Part shown: in pieces, positions 8,240-25,721 of the stretch | How positions within the stretch are numbered: the stretch's first letter is position 1 | Layout: each line of letters opens with the position of its first letter | Assembly (NCBI GenBank): GCA_021323555.1 | Contig: JAJONP010000023.1 | Coordinates: 1-38,959 of the forward strand | Reading direction: 5' to 3' | Length of the DNA: 38,959 bases | Source of the DNA: Gammaproteobacteria bacterium | GTDB taxonomy: Bacteria > Pseudomonadota > Gammaproteobacteria > DSM-16500 | Notes under the pieces: generated by a model | Database searches by the model: none | Seen by the model: the letters and a program-made list of their open reading frames with translations, nothing else | Told to the model about the DNA's origin: nothing | Program-made: the position numbers and the translations under genes

Positions 8240-8248
8240 CCTTCAAGA

Positions 8249-8384: not shown

Positions 8385-8414
8385 AAGGCTGACGGTGAAT
8401 ATACGTTTTTTGAT

Positions 8415-9326: not shown

Positions 9327-9341
9327 TTCGTAAGAGCCGCT

Positions 9342-9947: not shown

Positions 9948-10136
9948 CTACTGAAAATATATTTTTTATCTGAAAGATAGGATTTTTAAAAGGTAAAGGA
10001 TATAATTTTGTACATTACTTTACAAAGAAATTCAAAAAATTGCTATTTTAATATAACTGATTGTTTAATAATGGGAATTTTTTATTCTTGTGAATATCCC
10101 AATTATCTTCTGTTGAAACCGACTAATAAGTGCCAT

Positions 10137-10181
10137 TTATCCGTGTAATTTTGAAGGACGACCTCAAAATTACACGGATAA
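10137..10181. repeat. 18-bp perfect inverted repeat (hairpin)
   Basis: TTATCCGTGTAATTTTGA (10137-10154) is exactly complementary to 10164-10181, with the 9-base loop AGGACGACC. It lies in the 259-base gap between two minus-strand genes, downstream of the phosphatase operon. No T-run follows on either strand, so a plain intrinsic terminator is not certain. It could be a terminator, an mRNA-end stabiliser or a small mobile repeat. The remainder of 9948-10206 is AT-rich and shows no gene. Confidence 0.6.
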
Positions 10182-10206
10182 TTAAATATTAAACGAACAT
10201 TCTCAA

Positions 10207-10830: not shown

Positions 10831-10831
10831 A

Positions 10832-11608
10832 TCATTTTCCATGAGTGATGACATAAGGTGTAATTGCTTTTTCAATAAGTGGTAATAATATATTAAAATC
10901 TTCTTTGTTTTTTGAGTATAATTTGAATTCGAGATAAGGGTAAAAAAAACGATAGCCTGTGGTGCATTGAAAGGGCCCTGCAAGTTTATCAAGTTCCTCA
11001 GCAATTTGTGCTTCGCTAACACCAGAGAGTAACCATTTTTGATAATAAATCGTTTGTTGAAATTGATTGTTCTTTAAGATAGATAGCACGCTGTTATCAA
11101 ACATCGGTAAACATTCTCCAGGGGGCCCTGGAAGCATAAAAATAAATTTTTCTGCATGCTGTATCATGCACCCTGCTGCTGTGCCATTGGGGTTAGGAAT
11201 AATCATCGCGTCGTTAGGAAATAAAGCTTGTTGACGATTGCTTTCGGGGGGTGTGTGAATGCCAAAGCGATGCAACCTTTCAATAATCGATTGCCAGCTA
11301 GATTCGTCAAACACAAGAGGGCGTTGTATAGTGTGGCTGACTGCCTGGCGTGTTAAATCATCTGAGGTGGGACCAAGCCCGCCGATAGTAATCAGTGCGC
11401 GGTGGTTTTGTAATAAAAAATTCATAGCCATCTCAAGATCAGCAAGATTGTCCGCGACTGTGATATGTATGCCAGTTTGTATGCCGTTACTAAATAATCG
11501 CTGTGCAATTTCTTGAGAATTAGAATTTAAAATATCGCCGTTGCAGATTTCATCTCCTGTCGCGAGCAGTGCAATGGCATGAGAGGATAAGAGCTTTTCT
11601 CGAATCAT
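10832..11608 (-). CDS. CinA N-terminal (MoaB/Mog-like) domain protein
   Basis: The 258-residue product matches the molybdopterin-binding-like N-terminal domain of CinA. ALLATGDEICNGDILNSNS lies at about residues 14-32, ITIGGLGPTSDDLTRQAV at about 72-90, then NPNGTAAG and MLPGPPGEC. The family is linked to NMN deamidation or ADP-ribose pyrophosphatase activity, and the MoaB fold binds nucleotide-like ligands. The C-terminal PncC amidohydrolase domain of full-length CinA (about 400 residues) is absent, as in the short gammaproteobacterial forms. It starts two bases after the stop of the avidin-like gene, and its stop abuts the phosphatase start, so the three are probably cotranscribed. Confidence 0.85.
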   Translation of the reverse strand: MIREKLLSSHAIALLATGDEICNGDILNSNSQEIAQRLFSNGIQTGIHITVADNLADLEMAMNFLLQNHRALITIGGLGPTSDDLTRQAVSHTIQRPLVFDESSWQSIIERLHRFGIHTPPESNRQQALFPNDAMIIPNPNGTAAGCMIQHAEKFIFMLPGPPGECLPMFDNSVLSILKNNQFQQTIYYQKWLLSGVSEAQIAEELDKLAGPFQCTTGYRFFYPYLEFKLYSKNKEDFNILLPLIEKAITPYVITHGK

Positions 11609-11610
11609 TA

Positions 11611-12021
11611 TTAAGTTCGCGTAAACACATCATGACTAATCATTCTTGCCCCTGGTCCTTCTGTAGCTATTTCAATGGATTGGTGAGCAACAATGGCTGT
11701 TGTATCAATAATTGTTTTATTTTTTTCGATATTGCCGATGAAAGTGACAACGGAACCACACGCCGGATAATTCGTGCTAAAAGTGATGGCATTTTTTGCG
11801 ATAAAGCCTATGATAGGTCTTTTCATGCCGATGGCTTGCGGACATTCTTTTGAAGCGACAGCTGTTGTAAATGTACCAGCCAGTGTATTATCTAAATTAA
11901 ATTGTAATGTAAGCATGGAACCGCGAGTGTTTTTATAATTAATGCTATCGCTTGCAGCAAATACCATTTGACTGAGTAGTAAGCTTAAAATGGTTATAAA
12001 AACGGTGTTGTTTATTTTCAT
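11611..12021 (-). CDS. Secreted avidin-like protein
   Basis: The 136-residue product has a signal peptide (about 1-22, cleavage near VFAA-SD). The mature part of about 114 residues resembles the avidin/streptavidin barrel. RGSMLTLQF aligns with the first strand of the family (GSxMTI), then LAGTFTTAVAS with the G(E)xTGTYxTAV motif, then RPIIGFIAKN with QPTFGFTVNW, and the ending HDVFTR with INIFTR. Two cysteines (in KECPQ and PACGS) could form a disulfide. It contains no tryptophan, whereas avidins use several Trp to hold biotin, so strong biotin binding is doubtful. The ATG has an AAGGAA ribosome site. First gene of a probable operon with cinA and the phosphatase. Confidence 0.6.
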   Translation of the reverse strand: MKINNTVFITILSLLLSQMVFAASDSINYKNTRGSMLTLQFNLDNTLAGTFTTAVASKECPQAIGMKRPIIGFIAKNAITFSTNYPACGSVVTFIGNIEKNKTIIDTTAIVAHQSIEIATEGPGARMISHDVFTRT

Positions 12022-12084
12022 TTTTAATTATTCCTTATCGTTTAGAAAATTCATTATATCAAACTAAATGCCATTTGCTATTTT

Positions 12085-12948
12085 TTACAAGCGCGGGATA
12101 GATGTGTTATTCTCGGTTTGCTGTCCTATCACGCAAGCTTGAATAGCAGAAACGATATCTGTCTGCTTATCGCATCCGCAAATTTTTATACCATTTGATT
12201 TTGCCCATTTTTCAACTGTTGAAGTATTTTTTTCATTTCTCTCGCTAATGCTACCTGCATTCAGATTATCAGAACGTAATACAAGTGTTGTTTTATCAGG
12301 GTTTAACTGCAATTGATCCATTATTTTGGAATAACATTCCGCATCCAGGCAACGATGCTGGTAGGATAGAAATACAGGTATTTTATCCCACTGATCTATA
12401 CCCAGTTTTCTTGCGTGAATAGGATTAGTACCACTTAAAAAAGCTATCCGTATATTAAGGCTTTCAATAGTTTTGAGGCGATTTTTCAGGATCTCTGGAT
12501 CGCCCAGCATAGCATTCCAGGCATTATCAAATTCTTCGTCAGATGGATTGATTCCTAAAATTTTATTAATTCGAATTCTGAATTCATGTTCATCTATTTC
12601 GCCGCGTTTGAAAAGATCGTCTTCCTTGAAAACATCTTGAAGCATTAAAGGGGTTATAATGAGTTTTTTATTTTCTTTAGAAGCAACTTTCATAAACTCT
12701 GCGATACTGGCTTGATAGTCAAGTTTTAGCAATGAACCAATAGTAACAATATACGTTTCATTTACTGCATTAATCGGCTCGTTATTGGCGTAACAAAATG
12801 CAGAGGTTGCTATTCCAATAGCCGCGCCCATTTTTAACCAAGAAATAGGACGAGGTTGTCGTAGAACCCTATTAGCCTGAAAGTGAGTGTTAGGAAATGA
12901 ATTCCGTGCTGCGCTTGAAAAAAATCTCATAATACGTGATCGTGACAT
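12085..12948 (-). CDS. HAD-like protein lacking the catalytic aspartate
   Basis: The 287-residue product has a basic N-terminus, a hydrophobic segment at about residues 36-54, and a haloacid-dehalogenase-like domain. The cap region reads FKRGEIDEHEFRIRINKILG with DEEFDNAWNAMLGD. Motif II is present as IAFLSGTNPIHA, close to the YihX/GPP34 type (LSNTNxxH). In motif I the sequence is YIVTIGSLLKLD where active enzymes have a hhFDLGxV-type aspartate nucleophile, so Thr replaces Asp. It is therefore probably a pseudo-phosphatase or a binding protein. It is monocistronic and separated from its neighbours. A membrane-anchored or host-targeted role is possible but unproven. Confidence 0.6.
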   Translation of the reverse strand: MSRSRIMRFFSSAARNSFPNTHFQANRVLRQPRPISWLKMGAAIGIATSAFCYANNEPINAVNETYIVTIGSLLKLDYQASIAEFMKVASKENKKLIITPLMLQDVFKEDDLFKRGEIDEHEFRIRINKILGINPSDEEFDNAWNAMLGDPEILKNRLKTIESLNIRIAFLSGTNPIHARKLGIDQWDKIPVFLSYQHRCLDAECYSKIMDQLQLNPDKTTLVLRSDNLNAGSISERNEKNTSTVEKWAKSNGIKICGCDKQTDIVSAIQACVIGQQTENNTSIPRL

Positions 12949-13136
12949 AGTTAGGTACCTCTAAAATTAAATAAAAAATTTTTTTATTCAGTAGTAATAG
13001 CATAATTTTTCTGAATAATACTCTACATAAGAAATTCCAGTCTAATCCTTTTTGACTCTGTCTCGAAGGCAAATTATTATATATAAACTAATTTTGGTTT
13101 GACAGAATTATTAGTATTTAACATGAGATTTAATCT

Positions 13137-13754
13137 ATGCTTGCACTCTTCTTAAAAGGGTTAGTTATCGGCTTTGCCATTGCTGCACCCATTGGCCCTA
13201 TCAGTGTTCTTTGCATACAGCGTTCCTTGAGTGATGGTTTTAAGATTGGTTTCATGACAGGCATAGGTGCTGCTCTTGCAGATGGTACTTATGGCTTGAT
13301 TGCTGGGTTTGGATTAACAACAATCTCCTCCATGTTGGTCGCCCAACAATTTTGGATACGAATAATTGGCGGTTTATTTTTACTTTATCTTGGAATAAAA
13401 ACATTAATTACCTCTCCGCGTCAGCAGTCAATAAGTAAAGACGCAGAGAAATCCTCTTGGCATGCGTGTGCAACGAGTTATTTTTTAACAATTGCCAATC
13501 CGATGACTATCCTCTCTTTTATTGGTGTTTTCGCAGGATTAGGGGTAGGAAGTGCAAGCATTCATTATTTTAATGCAGTTTCTCTTGTAACAGGTATTAC
13601 ATTAGGGTCAGCTATTTGGGGATTATTATTATGTGGTAGCGTAGTGTATATTTTACGTGACCGTGTTAATCAGCCTTTTATGCGAATAATTAATTGGATT
13701 TCTGGTGGAGTTATTTTCGCGTTTGGCCTTTTTGCATTGAAGGTCGTGATATAA
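13137..13754 (+). CDS. LysE/RhtB-family amino-acid exporter
   Basis: The 205-residue protein is almost entirely hydrophobic, with about six membrane segments. It has the family signature near the N-terminus, GFAIAAPIGPISVLCIQRSL, followed by GIGAALADGTYGL and, near the middle, FLTIANPMTILSF. The family exports amino acids or derivatives from the cytoplasm; the substrate here cannot be read from sequence. A GAGA-type ribosome site precedes the ATG. The gene stands alone, divergent from the HAD-like gene across a 188-base AT-rich spacer (12949-13136) that should hold both promoters. Confidence 0.85.
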   Translation: MLALFLKGLVIGFAIAAPIGPISVLCIQRSLSDGFKIGFMTGIGAALADGTYGLIAGFGLTTISSMLVAQQFWIRIIGGLFLLYLGIKTLITSPRQQSISKDAEKSSWHACATSYFLTIANPMTILSFIGVFAGLGVGSASIHYFNAVSLVTGITLGSAIWGLLLCGSVVYILRDRVNQPFMRIINWISGGVIFAFGLFALKVVI

Positions 13755-13882
13755 GATCCTATTATCTTGCTTGTGACATTAATTAAAATGCAAATTTAAA
13801 TCCTACAAAATTTTACTCAAATTTCCTACAGACAAATCTAATCATCAGCGTAAAATTCAAAATCTTAACGTGGAGGTGCACT

Positions 13883-14101
13883 ATGGAAAATAGATTCGAT
13901 AAATTATTTTTTAAGAGTGATACGAGTTATAAGCGTGATTCAATGAGTAAAATGAATTGGAGACGTTATACGTTAGGCCTGATTTTTGGTACGGTCGCGG
14001 GGGGACTTCTTCTGGCTGGAATTTTGTTTAGTGCTGTTTTTGATTCTGTCGCCAGTGTTTTAGTTCTTGTTTTGCTTGCTGCTATAAGTGCAATGGAATG
14101 A
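13883..14101 (+). CDS. Small membrane protein of unknown function
   Basis: The 72-residue product has a charged N-terminus (1-27) and a C-terminal hydrophobic region. This region could form two short membrane segments (about 30-48 and 53-69), the first with a Gly-rich GLIFGTVAGGLLLAG pattern. A strong GTGGAGGTG ribosome site lies eight bases before the ATG, which supports real translation. It overlaps the next small frame by ATGA. No family was recognised. Confidence 0.6.
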   Translation: MENRFDKLFFKSDTSYKRDSMSKMNWRRYTLGLIFGTVAGGLLLAGILFSAVFDSVASVLVLVLLAAISAME

Positions 14102-14286
14102 CGCAGGTTGAATTTAAAGAAGATGCTTCTAGTGTCAAAAGTAGCTGGACTGAAAAAGATATAGAAGCAGTGTCGGATGTTGGTGTGCGCGTACTCCGAT
14201 CAAAGTTGGTAGCAAAAAAGCTTTTACGCTATCTGCTTCTATTTAATTCTTCATATCAATTTAGATTGATAAAATGGTTATCTTAA
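14098..14286 (+). CDS. Small hypothetical protein, coupled to the preceding gene
   Basis: The 62-residue frame begins inside the stop of the upstream small membrane protein (ATGA overlap), which is typical of translational coupling. The N-terminus is acidic and polar (EFKEDASSVKSSWTEKDIEA) and the C-terminus basic and hydrophobic (KKLLRYLLLFNSS). No family was recognised. A two-protein membrane module, possibly of toxin type, is one reading, but nothing in the sequence shows toxicity. Confidence 0.45.
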   Translation: MTQVEFKEDASSVKSSWTEKDIEAVSDVGVRVLRSKLVAKKLLRYLLLFNSSYQFRLIKWLS

Positions 14287-14375
14287 CCAGGGCAATCGCA
14301 CTGAAATTTGAGGTTTGAAGTCAATAAAAAATCAGTCTGATCTTTTTAAAGAAGCATACTATCGTTGCGAAAGGA

Positions 14376-14442
14376 GAGCTGCTTAAGGTCGTCCCCTCTC
14401 CCCTCACTGCGTTCCGGGAGAGGGGACGATCTTAAGCAGCTC
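14376..14442. repeat. 27-bp near-perfect inverted repeat
   Basis: The arm at 14376-14402 (GAGCTGCTTAAGGTCGTCCC and seven more bases) matches the complement of 14416-14442 at 26 of 27 positions. The 13-base loop is CTCACTGCGTTCC. The stem is G/C-rich compared with its surroundings. No T-run follows on the plus strand. It looks like a mobile hairpin or REP-like element as much as a terminator. Confidence 0.7.
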
Positions 14443-14462
14443 ATACCGATTATTTATTAATA

Positions 14463-14526
14463 GAAACGGGATCAGGCCTTCACAGTTATTAGTATTAGTT
14501 CAATTGTGCAAGCCTGAGCCCGTTTC
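14463..14526. repeat. Second long inverted repeat (64-bp unit)
   Basis: GAAACGGGATCAGGCCTT at the left pairs with AAGCCTGAGCCCGTTTC at the right, with about one mismatch and one bulge. Inner CACA/TGTG pairing extends the stem, around a loop rich in TATTAG. It starts 20 bases after the previous hairpin and does not resemble it in sequence. Together the two fill the 14287-14557 gap, where no gene is visible. Confidence 0.65.
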
Positions 14527-14557
14527 CGTTTTGCCGCTCTCGATTTTTAATAGAGGA

Positions 14558-14812
14558 TTATTTTAAAAAATGGAATAAAGTTTGTAGGCCACCCAGTATT
14601 GCAATATTCGCTGTGATTGCTTTAAATATAAAAGCATACATTTTCATCTCGAGGTCTTTTAGATGATCTTTAGTAGATAGTCTATCGTTAATTAAATTAC
14701 TTAATATTTCTGCAGTTACCTCAGCTTGAGTCTCTGCTATCTTAGGCCCAACACCCACTTCTTTTAATTTGTTTGCATAAGCCAGAGTGTCAAAAGCAAC
14801 GTGGGATTTCAT
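14558..14812 (-). CDS. DUF1640-like small coiled-coil membrane protein
   Basis: From the ATG at 14812 (ribosome site AGGTGGGG) the product has 84 residues. It shows the DUF1640 pattern: FDTLAYANKLKEVGV, then AETQAEVTAEIL, a short coiled coil with STKDHLKDLEMKM, and a C-terminal membrane helix (about 62-81). A frame from 14902 adds 30 residues with no good start signal and is not preferred. Such proteins are frequent in mobile or intracellular-bacterial genomes and have no settled role. It lies just outside the tRNA-flanked island. Confidence 0.65.
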   Translation of the reverse strand: MKSHVAFDTLAYANKLKEVGVGPKIAETQAEVTAEILSNLINDRLSTKDHLKDLEMKMYAFIFKAITANIAILGGLQTLFHFLK

Positions 14813-15030
14813 TTTTTCCCCACCTCTATAATTGCGTTTTTTATTTGAAAATATAGTATATTCAACAGGATTAATACTATCAGAGTGTTTTAAACATTGC
14901 ACCTTAATCTTTCCAAAAGTCCTTAAACCATCTCGGAAAGAGTTGTGTATAATGAAAATTTACTACACTCTCCAGTGTCTCATAAGCAGAAAGACAATAT
15001 AAATGTTTTAACTAGCTGATTATATTTTTT

Positions 15031-15056
15031 TTGATGGGCCGTGTTGGGATCGAACC
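15031..15056. repeat. 26-bp direct repeat, left copy (putative att site)
   Basis: The 26 bases 15031-15056 are identical to 17741-17766. Both copies are the 3' end of a tRNA-Lys from the T loop outwards. They enclose about 2.7 kb of accessory genes. The arrangement fits att sites of a tRNA-targeted integrative element. No integrase gene remains between them. Confidence 0.65.
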
Positions 15057-15076
15057 AACGACCTACTGATTAAGAG
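15035..15076 (-). tRNA. 3' half of tRNA-Lys(CTT) (fragment)
   Basis: Read on the minus strand this is the anticodon loop CTCTTAA (anticodon CTT, Lys), the 3' anticodon strand TCAGT, variable AGGTC, T arm GTTGG-TTCGATC-CCAAC (perfectly paired), acceptor strand ACGGCCC and discriminator A. Upstream of the loop there is no D arm or acceptor 5' strand; the five bases before the loop pair only partly. It is therefore a remnant, of the kind left as an attachment-site copy when an element inserts into a tRNA 3' end. CCA is not encoded. Confidence 0.75.
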
Positions 15077-15123
15077 TCTGAACGGGCATATTTAATTTCA
15101 TTTAAAATCAACACCTTACGATG

Positions 15124-15207
15124 AATTAGCTGTAACAAACCCGATCTAAATAGTTCATAATCAGGAGATATTTCATCTTATTTTGTTACAATTTTGCTAC
15201 ACTATAT
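15124..15207. repeat. 84-bp direct repeat, copy 1
   Basis: Bases 15124-15207 align without gaps to 16493-16576 at about 68 of 84 positions (81%). The best conserved parts are AATTAGCTGTAA at the left and TTTGTTACAATTT with GCTACACT at the right. Both copies are in the same orientation inside the island. The segment has no long frame and may be an integrase arm site, a recombination remnant or a shared promoter region. The rest of 15077-15321 shows no gene. Confidence 0.65.
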
Positions 15208-15321
15208 TTCAATTTTACGAATACGCTGCAAGAGACTCTTATAAGATAAATAAGCCAAAATTTGGATTCTTTTAAATAGCCTGCTATAATTTATATGTCC
15301 ATTGTTGTCATGAGGTTTCGC

Positions 15322-15732
15322 ATGAAAATTACCTTTAAAAAAAGCATTACATACAAAGTGTTAAAGCGAATCAATACGCTTTCAGGGGATGTTATTTTGC
15401 GTTCAGATGTTGCTACTATTGCTGCCCCTCGTCAAATCAGTCGTGCTTTAAAGCGTCTTGTGCAAAAAGGATACTTAGTGAAACTTGGGTATGGCGTGTA
15501 CGCTAAATTAACTCGCTCGGAAATTGCTAACACGACCTATCTTAAAGAAGGCGTACTTCCAACAATGCGTGCTGCATTAAACAGGCTCAATATTCGCTGG
15601 GACATCTCTCGTGAAGAACAGGACTATCAAGCAGGAATATCCGCACAAATTCCCGTTAATCCAGCCACAATACTCAAAGACAGATTTCGCCGACAATTGT
15701 GTTATCGTGATATGGAATTAACCCATGGATAA
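15322..15732 (+). CDS. AbiEi/DUF6088-like winged-helix regulator
   Basis: From the ATG at 15322 (ATGAGG upstream) the product has 136 residues. The N-terminal half fits the AbiEi/DUF6088 family of winged-helix antitoxin-like regulators: ITYKVLKRINTL, then RQISRALKRLVQKGYLVKLGYGVYAK. Such proteins normally repress and pair with an AbiEii-type nucleotidyltransferase toxin. Here no full toxin gene follows, only a short overlapping frame. Earlier starts at 15295 and 15310 are possible. It lies in the tRNA-bounded island. Confidence 0.65.
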   Translation: MKITFKKSITYKVLKRINTLSGDVILRSDVATIAAPRQISRALKRLVQKGYLVKLGYGVYAKLTRSEIANTTYLKEGVLPTMRAALNRLNIRWDISREEQDYQAGISAQIPVNPATILKDRFRRQLCYRDMELTHG

Positions 15733-15847
15733 GCTGCTTACCCAAGAACAATTAAAAGAACAGGTGTTGGGTTTATTGAAAAATCATTTTTTATTTTATA
15801 ATAATGAACATCCTCATCAAGAGTTAAAATGGTATGTTTTAAGCTAA
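15725..15847 (+). CDS. Short frame overlapping the regulator, possible remnant
   Basis: A 40-codon frame starts with ATG inside the last codons of the upstream gene and ends at TAA 15845-15847. The peptide begins MDKLLTQEQLKEQVLGLLKN and is not recognisable. Its position is where the toxin partner of an AbiEi-type antitoxin would start, so it may be the first codons of a deleted gene or a genuine small protein. The evidence is position and overlap only. Confidence 0.35.
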   Translation: MDKLLTQEQLKEQVLGLLKNHFLFYNNEHPHQELKWYVLS

Positions 15848-16222
15848 ATTTACCTCTAACTAGTATCCAACTTTATAGCGTCATGCTTTAAAACAATTTT
15901 TTTTACGTTGCCACAACAAGATAGCATATTTTGTGGCAATCAAAACGGTTAAATCATGGCAAAATCTGTAATAGGTGAGATAAAAATAGGATAATTCAGC
16001 GTTGTCTCACAACCATATCCTAACTGGAATCTTCTTCTTGATTATCGTCCGTATGAGGCATAATTTCTCCTGCTGCTAAAGGAGTAGTTAACTGCATATG
16101 TTTTCAACGTCAATATTATAACCATCGACTAATGTTTTTGTTCTGCTAGAGGTATTTGCTTTAAATTCTCTAGTAAGTAAGGTGAGCGCTATGTTGTGAA
16201 TATACATATATGCGTTATTTAT
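15848..16222. other. Gap inside the island with no clear gene
   Basis: These 375 bases are AT-rich and show no frame above about 30 codons that I would call a gene. On the minus strand a 25-codon frame near 16023-16100 reads MQLTTPLAAGEIMPHTDDNQ and ends EEDSS. It may be the tail of a lost gene. No repeat, tRNA or clear terminator was seen. Confidence 0.4.
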
Positions 16223-16453
16223 TTATTGAGCATGAGTTTTTTTTGTTACAGAACTTAAAGCTTCTCTGATTTTAATGAGTTCTTTTAAAATATCTATTAA
16301 GTAATCAATAACTAAAAATAGAGAGGATATGACAATACAAGCAGACGAAATTGTGAAAAAGTTAATACCATCCATGCGTCCGGTAAACCAAAGGAAGGCT
16401 GCAACAATAGTCGCAATTAAGAAACGTATATTTTGCCTCTCGTAGTTCGCCAT
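16223..16453 (-). CDS. Small two-helix membrane protein
   Basis: The 76-residue product has two hydrophobic segments (about residues 9-24 and 31-52) and a basic amphipathic tail with LIDILKELIKIREAL. The ATG is preceded by a strong AAAGGAGAT ribosome site. No family was recognised. It lies inside the tRNA-bounded island, next to the second 84-bp repeat. Confidence 0.5.
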   Translation of the reverse strand: MANYERQNIRFLIATIVAAFLWFTGRMDGINFFTISSACIVISSLFLVIDYLIDILKELIKIREALSSVTKKTHAQ

Positions 16454-16492
16454 TCAGGATCTCCTTTACCCGTAAAATCTTATAAGTTTCTA

Positions 16493-16576
16493 AATTAGCT
16501 GTAATAAAACTGATCTAACTAACCCATAATTATAAGTTATTCTATCTTACTTTGTTACAATTTCGCTACACTGTAT
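16493..16576. repeat. 84-bp direct repeat, copy 2
   Basis: This is the second copy of the segment at 15124-15207, same orientation, about 81% identical without gaps. The copies are 1369 bases apart and enclose the regulator and the small membrane protein gene. This suggests a tandem or nested insertion, or an old duplication of an island end. Confidence 0.65.
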
Positions 16577-16635
16577 CACGATTACTTAAGAAATGTTTTT
16601 TAAGGAGTTATAAGTGCCTATGCAAATTCATAGTA

Positions 16636-17724
16636 TTATTTTTTCTTTTTTTTAGATTTAATAAAGTCAGCGTTTAATTCCATTTCAATTTCTTCTATAG
16701 TAGGCAAGCTAGTTTGTAGTTTTTTAGGTAAAGCTTTTGAAAGCTGATATTCAGAAATTCCTATGGGTTTTTTAATATCACGTAATGAATATTCAGCAAA
16801 TATTTTATTTTTCTTTTCGCATAATAAAAGACCAATACTGGGATTATCGTGAGGAGTTTTTAATAACTCATCTACTGCTGACAAATAGAAATTTAATTTC
16901 CCTGCGTGTTCTGGTTTAAATTCTCCTTTTTTAATTTCTATCACAAAATAGCTGCGAAGTTTAAGATGATAAAATAGAAGATCAAGCCTAAATTCACGCC
17001 GATCAATAACCAAGGAATATTGGTTGCCAATAAAAGCAAAACCTTGTCCTAATTCAAGCATAAATTGGGTAATATGCGCTACAATTCCCCTTTCAATCTC
17101 TTGCTCATGAGCATCTTTTCCAACAGTCAGGAAATGAAATTTATAAGGGTCTTTCAATATTTCTTCTGCCAATGCAGATTGAGATTCTGGCAATCTTTGA
17201 TGAAAATTACTCGTTTTAATTTTTTTAGGCCCTTGACGTTTATACAGCTTGCCTTCTATTTGGGAAATAAGTTGACGGTATGACCATCCGTTTTGAAGTG
17301 TTTGTTTGGCATACCAATCTCTCTCTTCTTTTTGTTTCACTATTCTTAATAGTGCTATATTATGACTCCAGGGTAATTGGCTAGACACTGTCTGACCAAT
17401 TTTAAATTTAGGATAAGACTGAGCAAATAATTTCATATTTTTTAAATTAGCAACAGAAAAGCCTTCCGTATCAGGAAAGCTATGCTGCAAATCTTCTGCT
17501 AACACTCCAAGCAGATTGTCTCCCCATTTTGAAACTTTCTGTTTTTTAAGAATTAAAGTACCCACTTCCCAATAAAATTCCAACAAGATTTTATTAACTA
17601 CAATGGATGCTTGTAATTGTGTCGTACGAATTTTACTTTTAATCTTTAATAAAAAAGACTTGTAGCGAGGGTCTATGCGAAAAGACGTTACTCTAGCTAA
17701 GGTGTTAGTTTTATTTTTCTTCAT
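16636..17724 (-). CDS. DUF1016/YhcG-family PD-(D/E)XK nuclease-like protein
   Basis: From the ATG at 17724 the product has 362 residues. The N-terminal DUF1016 part reads LLEFYWEVGTLILKKQ, WGDNLLGVLAEDLQHSFPDT, GFSVANLKNMKLFAQSYP and LPWSHNIALLRIVKQ. The C-terminal nuclease-like part reads FRLDLLFYHLKLRSYFVIEI followed by KKGEFKPEHAGKLNFYLSAV; D, E and K are the expected active residues. The family occurs in mobile islands and near defence genes; its role is unsettled. A frame from 17820 adds residues only by reading through the tRNA and is rejected. The C-terminus ends in a Lys run. Confidence 0.85.
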   Translation of the reverse strand: MKKNKTNTLARVTSFRIDPRYKSFLLKIKSKIRTTQLQASIVVNKILLEFYWEVGTLILKKQKVSKWGDNLLGVLAEDLQHSFPDTEGFSVANLKNMKLFAQSYPKFKIGQTVSSQLPWSHNIALLRIVKQKEERDWYAKQTLQNGWSYRQLISQIEGKLYKRQGPKKIKTSNFHQRLPESQSALAEEILKDPYKFHFLTVGKDAHEQEIERGIVAHITQFMLELGQGFAFIGNQYSLVIDRREFRLDLLFYHLKLRSYFVIEIKKGEFKPEHAGKLNFYLSAVDELLKTPHDNPSIGLLLCEKKNKIFAEYSLRDIKKPIGISEYQLSKALPKKLQTSLPTIEEIEMELNADFIKSKKKKK

Positions 17725-17740
17725 TATTTCACTATTTTTA

Positions 17741-17766
17741 TTGATGGGCCGTGTTGGGATCGAACC
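17741..17766. repeat. 26-bp direct repeat, right copy (putative att site)
   Basis: It is identical to 15031-15056. Here the tRNA-Lys-type 3' end is joined at the T loop to the 5' two-thirds of a tRNA-His, so the junction lies within or just before the shared TTCGATC/GGTTCGATCCC segment. Confidence 0.65.
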
Positions 17767-17818
17767 CGCGACAACTGGAATCACAATCCAGGGCTCTACC
17801 GGCTGAGCTACGTCCACC
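17745..17818 (-). tRNA. Chimeric tRNA-His(GTG) with a tRNA-Lys 3' end
   Basis: The 5' part is a normal tRNA-His: GGTGGACG, D arm TAGCTCAGCCGGTAGAGC, and anticodon arm CCTGG-ATTGTGA-TTCCAG with anticodon GTG. From the T loop on it carries CCAACACGGCCCA, the same as the tRNA-Lys fragment at 15035. The T stem (GCGGG/CCAAC) and acceptor stem (GTGGACG/ACGGCCC) then have many mismatches, so the gene is probably not functional as it stands. It sits first after tRNA-Pro and tRNA-Arg, a common gammaproteobacterial order. CCA is not encoded. Confidence 0.75.
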
Positions 17819-17836
17819 AAAAACTTTTTTATCGTC

Positions 17837-17913
<77 letters not shown>

Positions 17914-17951
17914 ATTTTACCGCATTTTTTAGCCCAAAAAGCGCAAATTGA

Positions 17952-18025
17952 TCGGGGTAGAGGGATTCGAACCCCCGACATCCTGCTCCCAAAGCAGGCG
18001 CGCTACCAGACTGCGCTATACCCCG
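17952..18025 (-). tRNA. tRNA-Pro(TGG)
   Basis: The minus strand folds as a complete cloverleaf. The acceptor is CGGGGTA/TACCCCG, with D arm TAGCGCAGTCTGGTAGCGC, anticodon arm CCTGC-TTTGGGA-GCAGG (anticodon TGG), T arm CGGGG-TTCGAAT-CCCTC and discriminator A. CCA is not encoded. It is the first gene of the tRNA operon. Confidence 0.95.
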
Positions 18026-18065
18026 AATTTTGTTGCACTTGTATCCCTCAGCGCAATGGTTTGGA

Positions 18066-18094
18066 ATCATACTAGGCAAAAAGATAACAGTCAA
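18066..18094 (-). promoter_or_regulatory. Sigma-70 promoter of the tRNA operon
   Basis: On the minus strand TTGACT (18094-18089) and TATGAT (18071-18066) are spaced by 17 bases, about 40 bases upstream of tRNA-Pro. This is close to consensus and in the right place. The divergent folD gene has a TATAAT-type box at 18133-18138 with no clear -35. Confidence 0.65.
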
Positions 18095-18173
18095 TTTCTT
18101 TAAAATGACCTAATAAATCTTTTCTAATCCTGTATAATCTCGGCTGTTTATCAATAAAATTGGAACACCTATC

Positions 18174-19028
18174 ATGACAGCCAAGCTTCTCGATGGCAAA
18201 TTACTCGCAAAAAAAATTCGTGCCGAGATTGCAGAGGAAATTTGTTTAAGAACACAACAAGGCATACGATCTCCTGGACTCGGTGTGATTCTAGTAGGGG
18301 ACGATCCTGCTTCACATCTTTATGTCCGTAACAAACGCCAAGCGTGTGAGGAAACAGGCATCCGCTCTATTTATCATTCTTTACCCGCGAATACGCCAGA
18401 AACTGATTTGATTCACTTAATTCAACAGATGAATCAAGACACTGCTATTGATGGCATTCTTTTACAATTGCCTCTTCCCAAGTCTATAGATAGTCATAAA
18501 TTATTAGAACTCATTCATCCGAATAAAGATATTGATGGATTTCACCCTTATAATCTTGGCCGATTGGCGCAACGATGTCCTTTGCTTCGCCCCTGTACGC
18601 CTTATGGGATTATGACTTTATTAAGTAGTATTCAAGAGACTTATAAAAATCGTCATGCTGTGATTGTGGGTGCGTCTAATATTGTGGGGAGACCACTCGC
18701 GCTTGAATTTCTATTAGCAGGAAGTACAGTGACGGTTTGTCATCGCTTTACTCAAAATCTACCTTTTTATGTATCGCAGGCGGATATTTTAGTCTCTGCG
18801 GTAGGCAAATTAGATATTATTAAAGGCGATTGGATTAAACCAGGTGCGATAGTTATTGATGTTGGAACGAATCGACTACCGGATGGTTCTATAAGAGGGG
18901 ATGTTGAATTTGATGTAGCCCGTGATAGAGCCGCCTGGATTACGCCAGTACCCGGCGGAGTAGGTCCTATGACAATTGCTATGTTATTAAAAAATACTTT
19001 GCTCGCTGCTGCCAGTCGTTCCTGCTAA
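18174..19028 (+). CDS. folD: Methylenetetrahydrofolate dehydrogenase/cyclohydrolase FolD
   Basis: FolD converts 5,10-methylene-THF to 5,10-methenyl- and then 10-formyl-THF in the cytoplasm, using NADP. The 284-residue product has [18 protein letters not shown] with Y50 and the catalytic K54, then [10 protein letters not shown], the signature [11 protein letters not shown], and PCTPYGIM. The Rossmann motif is [10 protein letters not shown], followed by [17 protein letters not shown] near the end. Length is normal (E. coli 288). It stands alone, divergent from the tRNA genes. Confidence 0.97.
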
Positions 19029-19140
19029 AAAGCGTGGGATCTGTATGTTGCGCGTCACCTATTAAAAATACCGCATCGCTTAGAGTTAGCGAGAATTCTT
19101 TTTGCGGGATAATCATAAGAAATATACCTAATAACCCTTA

Positions 19141-19169
19141 TTGCACCTCCCGCCTCTCCTCAGTATACT
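19141..19169 (+). promoter_or_regulatory. Putative sigma-70 promoter
   Basis: TTGCAC (19141-19146) and TATACT (19164-19169) are 17 bases apart and lie about 50 bases upstream of the small gene at 19221. Nothing else was seen in 19029-19140. Confidence 0.5.
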
Positions 19170-19220
19170 CATCAGTTATTTCTCTTGTATGAGAATCATT
19201 CAGTTGAAAGGAGATCAGCT

Positions 19221-19382
19221 ATGGAAAGCAATGCAAAGCAACTTAACAAAGAAAGAGTGGCAATTCTGAGTAAAATATTAGGTATTCCAAAACCACAGGC
19301 ATGGAGTTTACTCGAAGGTCATTCTGCAACTGATCCTCTTGTATTAAAAAAATTAGCACATGAGTTTGAGTTAAATTTATAA
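19221..19382 (+). CDS. Small HTH-like protein of unknown function
   Basis: The ATG at 19221 has an AAAGGAGAT ribosome site and a promoter-like pair upstream. It gives 53 residues: a basic start, then NKERVAILSKILGIPKPQAW and SLLEGHSATDPLVLKKLAHE. The pattern of short helices resembles part of a helix-turn-helix of the Xre type, but it is too short to be sure. A 65-codon version starts at 19185. The stop overlaps the end of the convergent Sel1 gene by six bases. Confidence 0.5.
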   Translation: MESNAKQLNKERVAILSKILGIPKPQAWSLLEGHSATDPLVLKKLAHEFELNL

Positions 19383-20789
19383 CTGGTTTGTGTATTTTTG
19401 ATAGTACGTTTGTGCTTGCTGTTTGGCGGCGTTTATTTCATCCGCATTCATGTCGTGGGCTAATTTATCGCGCAATTTAATAGCCGCATTTCGTATGTCG
19501 TTATTGCTGGAAGTTGAAGCAAGATTCAACCAAACGTAAGCAAGCGTCTTGTTTTTAGGAATGCCTTGGCCTTGTTGATACATCACGCCAAGTAATAGCT
19601 GAGCATTATCCATGCCTTGTTCTGCTGCTTTGCTATACCAATAAGCGGCTGATGGCATATCGCTTGGAATGCCTGTTCCTTGCTGATAAAACAAGCCGAC
19701 CATATACTGCGCGTTGGCTGATCCCTCTTTTGCTGACGTGAGATACCAGGTAAATGCTTGCCTGTCATCCTTAGGTACACCCAGTCCATTATGATAGACA
19801 TAACCTACAGCAAATTGCGCTTCAGGAAAATTTTGTTGTGCTGCTTTCAAGTACCACTCTAATGCTTTCTGTGGGTTTTTGGGAACTCCAATACCATTAG
19901 ATGTTAAAAATCCAAGAAAATACTGCGCTCTGGGTAATGCTTGATCTGCTGCTTTGGTGACCCAGTTGACTGCTAAGGCTAAATTGGCGGGGGTGCCTTG
20001 TCCATTATAATAAGCGATGCCTAAATTATATTGTGCGATAGCAAGATTTTCTTCCGCCGCTTGTTTATACCAGGAAAAAGCCTGCGTTTTATCAAGTGCA
20101 GTGCCTTGGCCTAAACTATGCATTAAACCTAACATAAATTTAGCGGGTGTGAAGCCTTGTTGTGCGGCTAAATTAAACCAATGAATGGCTTGGTTATAAT
20201 CTTTATTGCTTGCTCCACCTAAATAATACATTAAACCTAAATTATATTGTGCTTGTACTAATCCTGCTGTAGCTGCCTTTGCATACCAATTCATTGCATC
20301 CGTCAGATTTTGAGTGACCCCAAAGCCTTTGGCATACATATACCCCAGCATATATTGCGCAGATGGATTGCCACGCAATGCAGCCTGGTTAAATAAAGTG
20401 ATGGCTTGCGTTAAGCCTTGCGATGCTCCTATGCCATAATAATACATCATGCCATACGCAAATTGGCCTTCAGGCAATCCTGCTGCACTGGCTTTAGCAT
20501 ACCAGGCTGTTGCGAGATCATTCTGTAGGGTTGTGCCAAAACCATGTTGATAAAAATACGCTAGCATATACTGAGCGACAGGGATGCCTTTTTCAGCATA
20601 GTCTTTGTAGATAGCAAATGCTTTCTCATATTCCTTATTTTTAAACGCTGAATAAGCTTCTGGTAGCTTTTGTTCGGCTGCTTTTTGCTGGAAGAATACG
20701 ATATTGGAATCGGTAGCAAGTAAAAAATGTGGGGTAAATCCTGATAAAATAATACTGGTTAATAAAATTTCCTTTATCCTATTTTTCAT
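19377..20789 (-). CDS. Secreted Sel1-repeat (TPR-like) protein
   Basis: The 470-residue product has a signal peptide (about 1-26, after FLLA-TDS) and then about eleven Sel1 repeats of 36 residues. Their pattern is 'AxxxYxxAAxxGxxxAQYxLGxxYxxGxGVxxD', from about residue 40 to 435. Sel1 proteins form protein-binding solenoids. Legionella relatives such as LpnE and EnhC act in host-cell entry or vacuole trafficking, so an envelope or host-interaction role is possible here by family only. It starts two bases downstream of the rocD stop on the same strand, so the two are probably cotranscribed. Confidence 0.88.
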   Translation of the reverse strand: MKNRIKEILLTSIILSGFTPHFLLATDSNIVFFQQKAAEQKLPEAYSAFKNKEYEKAFAIYKDYAEKGIPVAQYMLAYFYQHGFGTTLQNDLATAWYAKASAAGLPEGQFAYGMMYYYGIGASQGLTQAITLFNQAALRGNPSAQYMLGYMYAKGFGVTQNLTDAMNWYAKAATAGLVQAQYNLGLMYYLGGASNKDYNQAIHWFNLAAQQGFTPAKFMLGLMHSLGQGTALDKTQAFSWYKQAAEENLAIAQYNLGIAYYNGQGTPANLALAVNWVTKAADQALPRAQYFLGFLTSNGIGVPKNPQKALEWYLKAAQQNFPEAQFAVGYVYHNGLGVPKDDRQAFTWYLTSAKEGSANAQYMVGLFYQQGTGIPSDMPSAAYWYSKAAEQGMDNAQLLLGVMYQQGQGIPKNKTLAYVWLNLASTSSNNDIRNAAIKLRDKLAHDMNADEINAAKQQAQTYYQKYTNQL

Positions 20790-20791
20790 GG

Positions 20792-22000
20792 TTAATGTTT
20801 CCTGTCTGCTTGGGTTAATACTTGCGTAATGACTGCAATCACTTGATCAATTTGTTCCTGAGTAATAATCAGTGGAGGCGCGAGGCGAATGACGGTGTGA
20901 TGCGTCTCTTTAGTGAGTATGCCTCCTTCCATTAATTTTAAACACAGTTCTCTCGCCGAATAATAACGTGTGTTAATACTGAGGCCGAGCAATAATCCTT
21001 TTCCTCGTACTTCCTCAATCAAGGGGGATTGTATTTTCTTTAAATGCTGCATTAAATAATCACCCATTTCTGCAGCGCGTGCAATCAGATTTTCGTTAGC
21101 TAATACATTCAACGCTGCCAATCCAACCGTTGCTGCAAGTGGATTCCCGCCAAACGTACTGCCATGATCGCCAGGTGTAAAAACATCCATGATGTCTTTA
21201 CGGCTTAAGAAAACAGAAACAGGGAGTAAGCCACCGCCTAAAGCTTTTCCTAATAATACGCCATCAGGTGTTACATTTTCATGCTGACAAGCGAGAAATT
21301 TTCCCGTTCGGCCAATACCTGTTTGTATTTCATCGCAAATAAGTAATACATTATATTTGCGGCAAATCTCCGCGCATTTTTTTAAATACCCTACAGGTGG
21401 AACAATAATTCCGCCTTCGCCTTGGACGGGCTCTACTAAAAATGCGGCCGTGTTAGGTGTGATGGCTTGCTCAAGCGCTGCTGCATCACCATAAGGAATT
21501 TGTTTAAAGCCGCGAGGGAAAGGACCAAAGCCTGCGCGATATTGGGGTTCAGAAGACATGCCCACAATAGTGATCGTTCGGCCATGAAAATTACCTACAC
21601 AAGTGATAATCTCAGCCTGATTTTCTGGAATATTTTTTATAGTATATGCCCATTTACGCGCTGCTTTTAAAGCAGTCTCCACGGCTTCTGCGCCAGTATT
21701 CATCGGCAATGCTTTTTCCTGGCCTGTGAGTTCACAAATCTTTTGTAAAAACGTACCTAATTTATCTGTATAAAAAGCACGAGATACCATTGTTAATGTA
21801 TGCGCTTGTTCTGTGAGTGCTCTGACCAGTACAGGATGGCAATGTCCATGGCTCACTGCTGAATAAGCGCTCATCATGTCAATATAGCGTTTACCTTCTT
21901 CATCCCATACGTAAATGCCATTGCCTCGTGTGATTACCACTGGCAATGGATCATAATTATGTGCGCCATATAAATATTCTTGATCAATGATAGAATGCAT
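20792..22000 (-). CDS. rocD: Ornithine-oxo-acid aminotransferase RocD
   Basis: This PLP enzyme transfers the delta-amino group of ornithine to 2-oxoglutarate, linking arginine and glutamate/proline metabolism. The 402-residue product matches ornithine aminotransferase more than ArgD. It begins HNYDPLPVVITRGNGIYVWD, with SAYSAVSHGHCHP at about 44-56, NTGAEAVETALKAARKW at about 101-117, the PLP-contacting LLICDEIQTGIGRTGK with D223, and LLGKALGGG with the Schiff-base K252. The length is normal. It lies 74 bases downstream of the 6S RNA on the same strand. Confidence 0.9.
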   Translation of the reverse strand: MHSIIDQEYLYGAHNYDPLPVVITRGNGIYVWDEEGKRYIDMMSAYSAVSHGHCHPVLVRALTEQAHTLTMVSRAFYTDKLGTFLQKICELTGQEKALPMNTGAEAVETALKAARKWAYTIKNIPENQAEIITCVGNFHGRTITIVGMSSEPQYRAGFGPFPRGFKQIPYGDAAALEQAITPNTAAFLVEPVQGEGGIIVPPVGYLKKCAEICRKYNVLLICDEIQTGIGRTGKFLACQHENVTPDGVLLGKALGGGLLPVSVFLSRKDIMDVFTPGDHGSTFGGNPLAATVGLAALNVLANENLIARAAEMGDYLMQHLKKIQSPLIEEVRGKGLLLGLSINTRYYSARELCLKLMEGGILTKETHHTVIRLAPPLIITQEQIDQVIAVITQVLTQADRKH

Positions 22001-22073
22001 GATAATTCCAATAGAGATTTTAATATGTAAGTAGTATAGCGGAATCTTGGAAAATTAAAGAGAGGAATTAAAA

Positions 22074-22239
22074 GGGTATTTTTCCAGGGCGCCTTAAGAA
22101 ACCCTCTTCCTATTATGTTGGAGACCTCTGCTGCATTTTAGGCTTTCCTTTCATGAAGGACTTGCTCACCACGCTTCAAGTCGATCCCCCTTTAATTACT
22201 ATTGCACGGTTCCAGACGAAACTCCTGATAAAAATACCC
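22074..22239 (-). ncRNA. ssrS: 6S RNA
   Basis: The 166-base region folds with a long closing stem: GGGTATTTTT at the 5' end pairs with AAAAATACCC at the 3' end, and a CAGG/CCTG helix follows. Inside, the minus strand reads GGTGAGCAAGTCC...GGAAAGCCTAAAATGCAGCAG. This parallels the E. coli 6S region GGTGAGC...AAGCCTTAAAACTGCGACGA. 6S RNA mimics an open promoter and binds sigma-70 RNA polymerase. It is usually about 180 bases, so this one is slightly short; the ends are set by the closing stem. A near-consensus promoter lies immediately upstream. Classical neighbour ygfA is absent; rocD follows instead. Confidence 0.85.
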
Positions 22240-22245
22240 ATAGTG

Positions 22246-22273
22246 AGTATACAAAAGATTGTTTAATTTTCAA
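22246..22273 (-). promoter_or_regulatory. Sigma-70 promoter of 6S RNA
   Basis: On the minus strand TTGAAA (22273-22268) and TATACT (22251-22246) are 16 bases apart. The predicted start is the first G of the 6S closing stem at 22239, seven bases past the -10 box. Confidence 0.75.
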
Positions 22274-22389
22274 CCACAACCAGGGTCAAAAAATAGCACA
22301 CCCTTGATTATATTGGAAATATATATTTATATAAAATGGATGAATATTGTTACTATTAGACATTTTTAATCATCATCAGATTTTTAATC

Positions 22390-23721
22390 ATGATAAAGCA
22401 TAAACAACAAAAAATATTAACTGAAGTGGAAGCAACGATTCATGCATTAAGTCATGATGGGCGTGGTATTGCTCGCATCAATGGTAAAACCCTTTTTGTT
22501 CATGGTGCAATCCCAGGCGAAAAAGTGAAATGCCATATCACCCAACATCATCGTCACTATGATGAAGCTGTCGCAATAGATGTGGTGATTGCAGCGCCTG
22601 AGCGTGTGACTGCTGATTGTCCCCATTTTGGCGTGTGCGGCGGTTGTAGTATGCAGCATATTCATATCACCCACCAAATTCAATTTAAGCAACAAATAGT
22701 ATTAGAGCAGCTTAAACATTTTGGAAAAGTAGTGCCTCAAACTCTTTTGTCGCCTGTGATTGGTGAAGCGTGGGGTTATAGACGTAAAGCACGCTTAGGT
22801 GTGCGTTATGTCATAAAGAAAAATAAAGTGCTGGTGGGGTTTAGGGAAAAATTCAATCGTGGCCTTGCAGAGATACAACAATGTTTAGTTTTGCATCCGA
22901 GTATAGGAACACGGATGACAGCACTTGCTGAATTAATAGCAAGTCTAAGTCAGTACGACCATATTGCACAGGTTGAAGTAGCTATTGGTGATGATGCGGC
23001 TGCTTTAGTTTTTCGGAACTTGAATTCTCTCCCTGAAGAAGATTGCGTAAAATTGCGTAATTTTGGAAAGGCGACTGACTTGCATATTTATTTGCAGCCT
23101 AATTTACCTGAGCCTCTCAAAAAATTATGGCCGGAAGATCATAACGATAGACTGACTTATGCATTACCTGAATATGCACTTACTCTGCGCTTTCATCCAC
23201 TCGATTTTACCCAAGTGAATAGTGAAATTAATCAAGTGATGGTCAAACAAGCCGTTTCTCTGCTTGCACCAGAACCCACTGATTCTCTATTAGATTTATT
23301 TTGCGGGTTAGGTAATTTCACATTACCATTAGCGCGTTATGCCAAGCATATTGTGGGGGTGGAAGGTAGTGAGGGAATGGTAAAACGCGCAGAAGAAAAT
23401 GCACTTTATAATAAAATAACAAATACAAAATTTTATGCGGCCAATTTGATGGGGGCATTAGAAAATGCGCCATGGCTGCAACAAACATATGACAAGATTT
23501 TGTTAGACCCTCCACGAACAGGTGCAAAAGAAATTATTTTATATTTTTCAAAATTATCCGCAAAAAAAATCATTTATATCTCTTGTAACCCCGCAACGTT
23601 AGCGCGCGATGCAGGGGAATTGGTTCATCAACAAGGATATGCACTTACGCAAGTAGGTGTTATTAATATGTTTCCGCATACGAGTCATATCGAGTCGATT
23701 GCGGTTTTTGAGAAGAAATAA
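22390..23721 (+). CDS. rlmD: 23S rRNA (uracil-1939-C5)-methyltransferase RlmD
   Basis: RlmD methylates U1939 of 23S rRNA using SAM and contains a 4Fe-4S cluster. The 443-residue product has an N-terminal TRAM domain (about 8-65), then the cluster cysteines in CPHFGVCGGCSMQHI at about 77-91 with a further Cys near 165. The SAM-binding LLDLFCGLGNFTLPLA is at about 300-315, followed by GVEGSEGMVKRAEEN. The catalytic region reads LDPPRTGAKE and YISCNPATLARD with the nucleophile Cys. It stands in front of relA, as in many gammaproteobacteria where rlmD-relA is a common pair. Confidence 0.95.
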   Translation: MIKHKQQKILTEVEATIHALSHDGRGIARINGKTLFVHGAIPGEKVKCHITQHHRHYDEAVAIDVVIAAPERVTADCPHFGVCGGCSMQHIHITHQIQFKQQIVLEQLKHFGKVVPQTLLSPVIGEAWGYRRKARLGVRYVIKKNKVLVGFREKFNRGLAEIQQCLVLHPSIGTRMTALAELIASLSQYDHIAQVEVAIGDDAAALVFRNLNSLPEEDCVKLRNFGKATDLHIYLQPNLPEPLKKLWPEDHNDRLTYALPEYALTLRFHPLDFTQVNSEINQVMVKQAVSLLAPEPTDSLLDLFCGLGNFTLPLARYAKHIVGVEGSEGMVKRAEENALYNKITNTKFYAANLMGALENAPWLQQTYDKILLDPPRTGAKEIILYFSKLSAKKIIYISCNPATLARDAGELVHQQGYALTQVGVINMFPHTSHIESIAVFEKK

Positions 23722-23812
23722 TCAAGCGTGTAAGATAAGCCACGAAAAAAAAGATTTTGTGTGATACCATAAGCTGCTTTTGTTTTTTAAAAAGTAATTC
23801 TTATAAAAAGTA

Positions 23813-25630
23813 ATGCTTATGATAGCTATAGAAGAAAAAATCATACACTTACCTAACGGTCCCATTGATGTCAACGGGTGGTTGACGCGGTTTCAAGCGA
23901 ATGCTATTTCATCGACAGACATTATTCAAAAAGCAGTCCAACTGGCGGAGGTAACGGCCCAGGGGCTTACAACATTTTATGGGAAACCTTACCTTGCGGA
24001 AGGCATAAAAATAGCGGAGATTTTAGTGGATCTAAAGTTAGATCACGAAGCCATCGCGGCCAGTATTATTACGCCTATCCATGAAAATTATTTGACATTG
24101 GATACCATCAAAAAACAGTTAGGGGAAAATATTGAAAAATTAGTGAGAGGGGTGCGTCAAACCAAAATTATTGACACTCTACAGACTCATACTAATAAAA
24201 CCCGTGATAAAACGAAAATTGACTGTTTGCGTAAATTATTTTTAGCAATGGTGTCTGATATTCGCGTAGTGTTAATTAAATTGGCCGAACGTCTCTGTAT
24301 CATGTACGGCATTAAAAATATTAACCCCACAGAGCGCCAACGTTTCGCCCAAGAAACGCTGGATATTTATGCTCCTCTTGCCAATCGTTTAGGAGTAGGA
24401 CAGTTAAAAGGCGAATTAGAAGATATTGCTTTTCGTTATTTAGATCCGGCTGCTTATAAAAAAATTGCGGCATTTCTTGCTGAACGGCGTAGTGATAGAG
24501 AAAAACGTATTCAAGAAATGCTTTTATTTTTAAATAAAAATTTTGAAGAAGAAAAAATGAAAGCAGTGATTTCAGGCCGTGCGAAGCATATCTATAGTAT
24601 TTATACCAAATCACAAAAAAAACACCTTAATTACCAAGATATCTATGACTACAGTGCATTACGCATTTTAGTGCCAACAGTCAATGATTGTTATGCTGCA
24701 TTAAGTATCGTGAATAAACTTTGGGAATCTATTCCGGATGAATTCTGTGATTATATTGCAAACCCTAAACCGAATGGATATCGTTCTATCCATACCGCTG
24801 TGATTGATCAATATAATAAATATGTCGAAATTCAAATTCGTACTCATAAGATGCACGAAGAAGCAGAGCATGGCATCGCCGCGCATTGGTTATATAAAGA
24901 AGATAAAACACGTGACCCTGATTATCAAAAGAAAATTACTTTTTTACGCCAATTGCTTGCGTGGCATAAAGACCTTGTGAATCAAGGAATACAGCCTGAC
25001 TCTACCATGAAAACTATTTTTGAAGATTGTATTTATGTATACACACCCATGGGTGATGTTATTGAGTTGCCTAAGGATGCTACGCCATTGGATTTTGCCT
25101 ATCATATTCATACGGCTCTAGGGCATCGCTGTCGAGGCGCCAAAATTAATGGGCATATTGTGCCTTTGACTCACGCATTGCATACAGGTGATCGCGTGGA
25201 AATTCTCACAACGCCACAAGGTATACCCAGTAGAGATTGGTTAAGAAAAGAAGCGGGTTATATTAAAACTGCAAATGCCTATGGGAGAGTAGCGCATTGG
25301 TTTAAGCAGCAAGATAGTAGTCAACGAGTGGAAGCCGATAAAAAAATCTCACATCCTCCAAAGCGTAATTTGCCGCCTGCTATTGTACCGACTGATACAC
25401 CCTCTGCTGTTTCCTTAACAGGCGTGCGAATTGATGGAGTAGGAGGGGGCCTGCTTGTTCGAATCGCGGGATGTTGTCAACCAATCCCACCCAATGCGGT
25501 GATAGGTTATATTACACAAAGCCGAGGTGTTTCTATTCATCGAAAAAATTGTAGCACTGTTTCTTATTTAACTCAGGATTATCAAGATCGTTTAGTGCAA
25601 GTTGAGTGGAATTCACTACCTGCTAAATAA
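23813..25630 (+). CDS. relA: RelA-type (p)ppGpp synthetase, short, lacking ACT domain
   Basis: RelA makes (p)ppGpp when ribosomes stall on uncharged tRNA. The 605-residue product has a degenerate hydrolase domain (about 35-200) with no HD pair (ASIITPIHENY where SpoT has a HD motif). The synthetase domain follows at about 250-365 (ISGRAKHIYSIYTKSQKK, DYIANPKPNGYRSIHTAVI, KMHEEAEHGIAAHW), then a TGS domain at about 405-465. A shortened linker leads to the zinc-finger-like CC region, IAGCCQPIPPNAVIGYI and HRKNC (about 545-580). Full RelA is about 740 residues; here the helical part is cut down and the C-terminal ACT/RRM is missing. An alternative start is at 23819. Downstream of rlmD by 91 bases. 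Confidence 0.9.
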   Translation: MLMIAIEEKIIHLPNGPIDVNGWLTRFQANAISSTDIIQKAVQLAEVTAQGLTTFYGKPYLAEGIKIAEILVDLKLDHEAIAASIITPIHENYLTLDTIKKQLGENIEKLVRGVRQTKIIDTLQTHTNKTRDKTKIDCLRKLFLAMVSDIRVVLIKLAERLCIMYGIKNINPTERQRFAQETLDIYAPLANRLGVGQLKGELEDIAFRYLDPAAYKKIAAFLAERRSDREKRIQEMLLFLNKNFEEEKMKAVISGRAKHIYSIYTKSQKKHLNYQDIYDYSALRILVPTVNDCYAALSIVNKLWESIPDEFCDYIANPKPNGYRSIHTAVIDQYNKYVEIQIRTHKMHEEAEHGIAAHWLYKEDKTRDPDYQKKITFLRQLLAWHKDLVNQGIQPDSTMKTIFEDCIYVYTPMGDVIELPKDATPLDFAYHIHTALGHRCRGAKINGHIVPLTHALHTGDRVEILTTPQGIPSRDWLRKEAGYIKTANAYGRVAHWFKQQDSSQRVEADKKISHPPKRNLPPAIVPTDTPSAVSLTGVRIDGVGGGLLVRIAGCCQPIPPNAVIGYITQSRGVSIHRKNCSTVSYLTQDYQDRLVQVEWNSLPAK

Positions 25631-25689
25631 AATAATTGTTTTTAGCGTAAATCATAGCTAATAATACAAAATATATTTAATATATTGTG

Positions 25690-25701
25690 TTATAATTATA
25701 A
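25690..25701. promoter_or_regulatory. Palindromic -10/operator-like site upstream of hipA
   Basis: A perfect 12-base palindrome TTATAATTATAA contains a consensus TATAAT and lies 20 bases before the hipA start. HipB-type repressors bind palindromes over their own promoter, so this is a candidate operator. AT-rich palindromes also arise by chance, and the -35 box is unclear. Confidence 0.35.
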
Positions 25702-25721
25702 GAATATAAAATAGGTTTTAT

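Follow-up and report, generated by a model that had tools for sequence, protein, structure and literature searches.

The stretch of DNA analyzed here (the window; 38,959 nucleotides [nt]) carries a tRNA gene assembled from parts of two tRNAs. From position 17818 to position 17745, its minus strand has the sequence of a tRNA-His(GTG) between G-1 and the T stem and thereafter that of a tRNA-Lys 3' end. The gene lies beside two further tRNAs and a gene that we take, from the look of its sequence, to be folD:

17745..17818, minus strand: His/Lys chimeric tRNA gene, presumed pseudogene (sequence reading, ARAGORN, Rfam, relatives, stem pairing)
17818-17767, minus strand: tRNA-His 5' part of the chimera
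17756..17766, minus strand: fusion interval GGTTCGATCCC, 11 nt that recur in 6 of 21 His T arms from relatives
17745..17755, minus strand: tRNA-Lys-type T-stem and acceptor 3' strand, with A73 at its end
17837..17913, minus strand: tRNA-Arg(TCT), intact (ARAGORN, Rfam)
17950..18026, minus strand: tRNA-Pro(TGG), intact (ARAGORN, Rfam)
18174..19028, plus strand: folD, anchor of the Pro-Arg-His-Lys cluster in relatives

Relatives were identified by an IcmB search of 369 genomes (the class of a distant match), in which the best match was genome G153, at 88% identity; its family comprises 36 genomes. The names icmB, argD, rlmD, relA, and hemB, like that of folD, are presumptive and follow the look of the sequences.

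The original prediction, that the 5' part of a tRNA-His(GTG) is joined to the 3' end of a tRNA-Lys, is borne out by the sequence, and both programs applied accepted the gene, Rfam only barely. ARAGORN predicted a tRNA-His(GTG) at 17745-17816 on the minus strand, and Rfam scored the chimera at 31.3 bits (cut-off, 29), as against 71.4 and 70.2 bits for the two neighboring tRNAs. The T and acceptor stems no longer pair, as had also been claimed: at canonical positions, the acceptor strands GTGGACG and ACGGCCC form 2 of 7 pairs, and the T-stem strands GCGGG and CCAAC form 3 of 5. The full 7 acceptor and 5 T-stem pairs expected of a functional tRNA-His are thus missing from the chimera; both are complete in each of the His and Lys genes of G153. 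The D and anticodon stems are paired, with no broken pair, and the anticodon is GTG. The predicted fold of the chimera is no better than those of shuffled sequences (z = 0.47; 136 of 200 shuffles were at least equally stable), compared with z values of -2.07 and -2.16 for tRNA-His from two relatives and -3.70 for one tRNA-Lys. G-1 opposite C73 is an identity element of tRNA-His, and the chimera has G at position -1 and A, not C, at position 73.

No evidence for a working chimera was seen in stem pairing, folding, or position 73, and on its sequence the gene should, presumably, neither fold nor work as tRNA-His. It is very improbable that the chimera is instead the organism's only tRNA-His, working through an alternative fold or made functional after transcription by editing, by repair or replacement of its 3' end, or by joining to a piece encoded elsewhere. 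Such a reading would fit the single tRNA-His that relatives appear to have and the use of both CAT and CAC in the six window genes counted, but it conflicts with the broken stems, the unremarkable fold, and the A at position 73.

The tRNA-Lys portion has a counterpart at a second locus in the window, which lies among apparent remnants and cargo of mobile elements:

15035..15078, minus strand: displaced 3' fragment of tRNA-Lys(CTT), extending from the anticodon loop to the discriminator base (repeat and relatives)
15124..15214, no strand assigned: element arm adjoining the Lys fragment and forming copy 1 of a 91-nt repeat; its match to the arm in G153 is 81% over 79 nt
16493..16583, no strand assigned: copy 2 of the 91-nt repeat, 79%
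15295..15732, plus strand: DUF6088/AbiEi-type antitoxin-like protein, island cargo (tested from an inner ATG at 15325)
16636..17724, minus strand: YhcG/DUF1016 PDDEXK nuclease, island cargo
14957..15001, plus strand: past the Lys fragment, a probable C-terminal remnant of an integrase (weak, from a short DNA alignment and a protein resemblance judged by eye)
12085..12948, minus strand: gene whose 58% relative in G153 likewise lies beyond a Lys fragment, each gene being on the strand of its fragment

A 40-nt direct repeat (93%) pairs 15023-15062 with 17733-17772. Its core, 15031-15056 and 17741-17766, is identical over 26 nt, of which 22 are within the chimeric gene and 4 extend past its end, and an identity of this length inside the repeat is far beyond chance. 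The claim that the 3' part of the chimera is identical to a Lys(CTT) fragment 2.7 kb away therefore stands, with 26 exact nt from the T arm on; the identity of that fragment also held, and its extent was refined to run from the anticodon loop through the 3' end. The chimera and the fragment are 2,710 nt apart, start to start, and have the same orientation. Neither a displaced tRNA-His 3' end nor a tRNA-Lys 5' half had a match in the window at up to 3 mismatches, and a displaced His 3' end, as would be expected had the element integrated into tRNA-His, was accordingly rejected.

The order of tRNA genes in relatives accounts for both halves of the chimera. FolD was matched in 32 of the 36 family genomes, and 30 loci were compared; a FolD contig search returned at least 80 distant loci, with a best identity of 61% and with no Legionella or Coxiella among the matches listed. 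Nineteen of the 30 loci contain tRNA-Pro, -Arg, -His, and -Lys(CTT) consecutively, 3 to 89 nt separating His from Lys. Of the others, two extend to His but include no Lys, two end short of it, and seven lack any tRNA over the stretch compared. Longer or other stretches showed His and Lys as neighbors in three of these seven (G370, G371, and G379) and in one of the two ending before His (G393). The halves of the chimera therefore most likely derive from direct neighbors.

The His T arm contains GGTTCGATCCC, as does the Lys fragment of the window, in 6 of 21 cases, and the GGTTCGA portion of it in the other 15, such that a deletion between the T-arm repeats common to His and Lys would yield the sequence of the window. 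The fusion point falls within this common sequence in the T loop, which supports the suggestion that a deletion occurred between similar T loops. Against a deletion, the same fusion was present in none of the 36 related genomes (up to 3 mismatches), and no tRNA was predicted within 20 kb around folD in G391. Viral contigs contained no exact match to the junction.

The gene for tRNA-Lys(CTT) is a recurrent island site in these relatives. Among 36 genomes searched, 28 had a match to its 3' end, and 8 of these contained an extra copy. Seven of the 28 carry a displaced fragment (G153, G379, G384 [two], G398, G399, G401, and G402); the fragments in those seven were uncalled by ARAGORN, and by eye their Lys likeness begins in the anticodon loop or at most 4 nt from it. 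In the eighth genome, G396, the Lys copies abut masked bases or a contig end. Together with the adjacency of His and Lys in 19 of 30 loci, these fragments sustain the original proposal of an island at the 3' end of a tRNA-Lys beside tRNA-His. In G153, an intact tRNA-Lys has a tyrosine integrase directly behind it (PF00589; E = 2e-31), and the distal Lys fragment is on another contig. No integrase was found among the 15 open reading frames (ORFs) tested from the islands of G384 and G401. In G402, an AbiEi/AbiEii pair (L242, 674-2298) adjoins the Lys fragment, the same kind of cargo as the AbiEi-type gene of the window.

Several features link the distal fragment of G153 to that of the window. 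Both adjoin the element arm, an integrase-like end lies beyond each (clear in G153, over 17 residues, and weak in the window), and a gene located farther outward, on the same side and the same strand, is 58% over 256 residues. This was the only one of the window's ORFs to match beyond the G153 fragment, a point against the deletion history. Among 4 ORFs within or adjoining the 2.7-kb island, Pfam detected no integrase, and tblastn of the G153 integrase against the window gave no match at 1e-3. We infer that the 2.7-kb segment is a decayed member of the island family common at tRNA-Lys(CTT).

A second decayed element probably lies beyond the Lys fragment. The 110 nt past that fragment were compared with 30 loci, 12 of which had no flank or too short a flank, leaving 18 tested. 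Only G153 stood out, its score being reached by 1 of 300 shuffles; the next locus, L095, was reached by 35 of 300. That these 110 nt are plain ancestral flank was rejected, the alignment falling on the integrase end of G153.

Other parts of the window also contain features of note. A LysE-type gene beyond the Lys fragment (13137-13754) has a 65% relative inside the G384 island at tRNA-Lys (L192, 13611-14228), which hints that island DNA makes up more of the window's flank. An inverted repeat at 14376-14442 has 27-nt arms that are 96% complementary and 13 nt apart. An ankyrin-repeat protein and a dual-specificity phosphatase-like protein, both effector-like in look, are encoded near icm/dot genes (8415-11022), and genes for a HipA-like protein and, next to it, a DUF1488-containing helix-turn-helix protein form a toxin-antitoxin-like pair (25722-27358). 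In G153, what we take to be icmB is directly followed by a sel1-repeat gene and hemB, and the tRNA-folD-argD-rlmD-relA block is on a different contig from icmB; in the window (8240-28071), about 20 kb, comprising this block and other genes, separates icmB from the sel1-repeat gene and hemB.

The position of the fusion bears on how it arose. An integrase specific for tRNA-Lys could have joined His to Lys directly at an off-target site, and the tyrosine integrase at Lys in G153, together with the element arm common to the window's island, would be in keeping with such an event. But the fragments at tRNA-Lys start at the anticodon loop and the fusion is in the T loop, the window offers no match to a displaced His 3' end, and its island yielded no integrase to either search; direct recombination of His with Lys by an integrase is accordingly disfavored and appears quite unlikely. 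This difference in position makes a separate deletion, dependent on homology and about one tRNA unit long, the best reading of the fusion, rather than an act of the integrase, and the fusion looks ordinary in its mode of origin. The lack of broken pairs in the D and anticodon stems suggests that the deletion is recent.

The number of tRNA-His genes bears on whether the deletion is real in the cell. A 30-base His pattern, allowing up to 2 mismatches, was searched against the family's 36 genomes and a further 143 from another order. There was exactly one match in 30 of 36 and in 112 of 143 genomes, respectively (142 of 179 overall); no genome had two, and the rest had none. Because nearly all matches in the 143-genome set used both mismatches, the pattern would overlook a second copy of slightly divergent sequence; many of the assemblies are, moreover, split into numerous contigs. 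In the 6 family genomes without a match, a shorter pattern gave 7 matches, equal to the 7 for a reversed control and hence background. As had been anticipated for a tRNA described as often single-copy, tRNA-His looks single-copy in relatives, and so either another tRNA-His exists outside the window or the assembly is wrong here.

The single match in all 142 genomes makes the second tRNA-His needed by a deletion unexpected, and an artifact of assembly or amplification, though the less probable reading, retains a real share of the probability. The true locus would then keep both His and Lys, and about 80 nt between the T arms would be missing through a consensus error or template switching. Three points favor an artifact: if tRNA-His is single, its true loss should be lethal; the D and anticodon stems of the retained His part are without a broken pair; and the contig of the relative G396 ends at a Lys tail. 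However, the stretch in common is at most 11 nt, and 11 nt is too short for the usual assembly-graph repeat; moreover, the cluster's two remaining tRNAs have normal scores, and the neighboring genes on the folD side align with those of relatives in unchanged order.

We favor, with moderate confidence, a real deletion of about 80 nt that fused neighboring His and Lys genes beside an island, yielding a nonfunctional pseudogene in a cell served by another tRNA-His. Integrative elements would have entered tRNA-Lys(CTT), directly 3' of tRNA-His in the Pro-Arg-His-Lys cluster, with a crossover at the anticodon loop that rebuilt Lys on the near side and left its 3' fragment at 15035-15078. The integrase would later have been lost from the element. 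Thereafter, the T arms of His and Lys, which have a repeat of 7 to 11 nt in common, would have served as end points of a deletion about one tRNA unit long, whereby the 3' end of His, the 5' part of Lys, and the spacer between them were lost. Lys(TTT), which can cover Lys(CTT) by wobble, is present in G153 and G360, making the loss of Lys(CTT) less serious. Because this history predicts that His stands beside Lys and that islands occur at Lys(CTT) in relatives, the presence of both supports it.

Islander, in the available part of its description, defines a tRNA-borne genomic island by a tDNA and a displaced 3' fragment in the same orientation, 2 to 200 kb apart, with an integrase inside, and distinguishes crossover subsites (PMC4383910). 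Like these islands, the 2.7-kb segment is flanked by a tDNA and a same-orientation 3' fragment, at 2,710 nt, and the fragment begins at the anticodon loop (subsite A). Unlike them, no integrase gene was found in the segment, and the near-end tDNA is a fusion of two tRNAs rather than a rebuilt gene; the Lys site is nonetheless used by an integrase-bearing element in the close relative G153. In Rickettsia peacockii, the accessible account describes a chimeric tRNA gene at the junction of a decayed tra cluster (PMC2791219). In both cases, the chimeric gene borders a mobile cluster that has decayed, and here both parent tRNAs, and their order in relatives, are evident. The literature searched, including the part of that report available, held no closer precedent, although others may exist.

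The locus carries a warning for annotation: a dead chimera can be listed as tRNA-His by a tRNA finder, and both ARAGORN and the Rfam cut-off let this one pass. If the deletion is real, islands at a tRNA gene can accompany the loss of a neighboring, normally single-copy tRNA, a loss made possible by the T-arm sequence that adjacent tRNA genes have in common.
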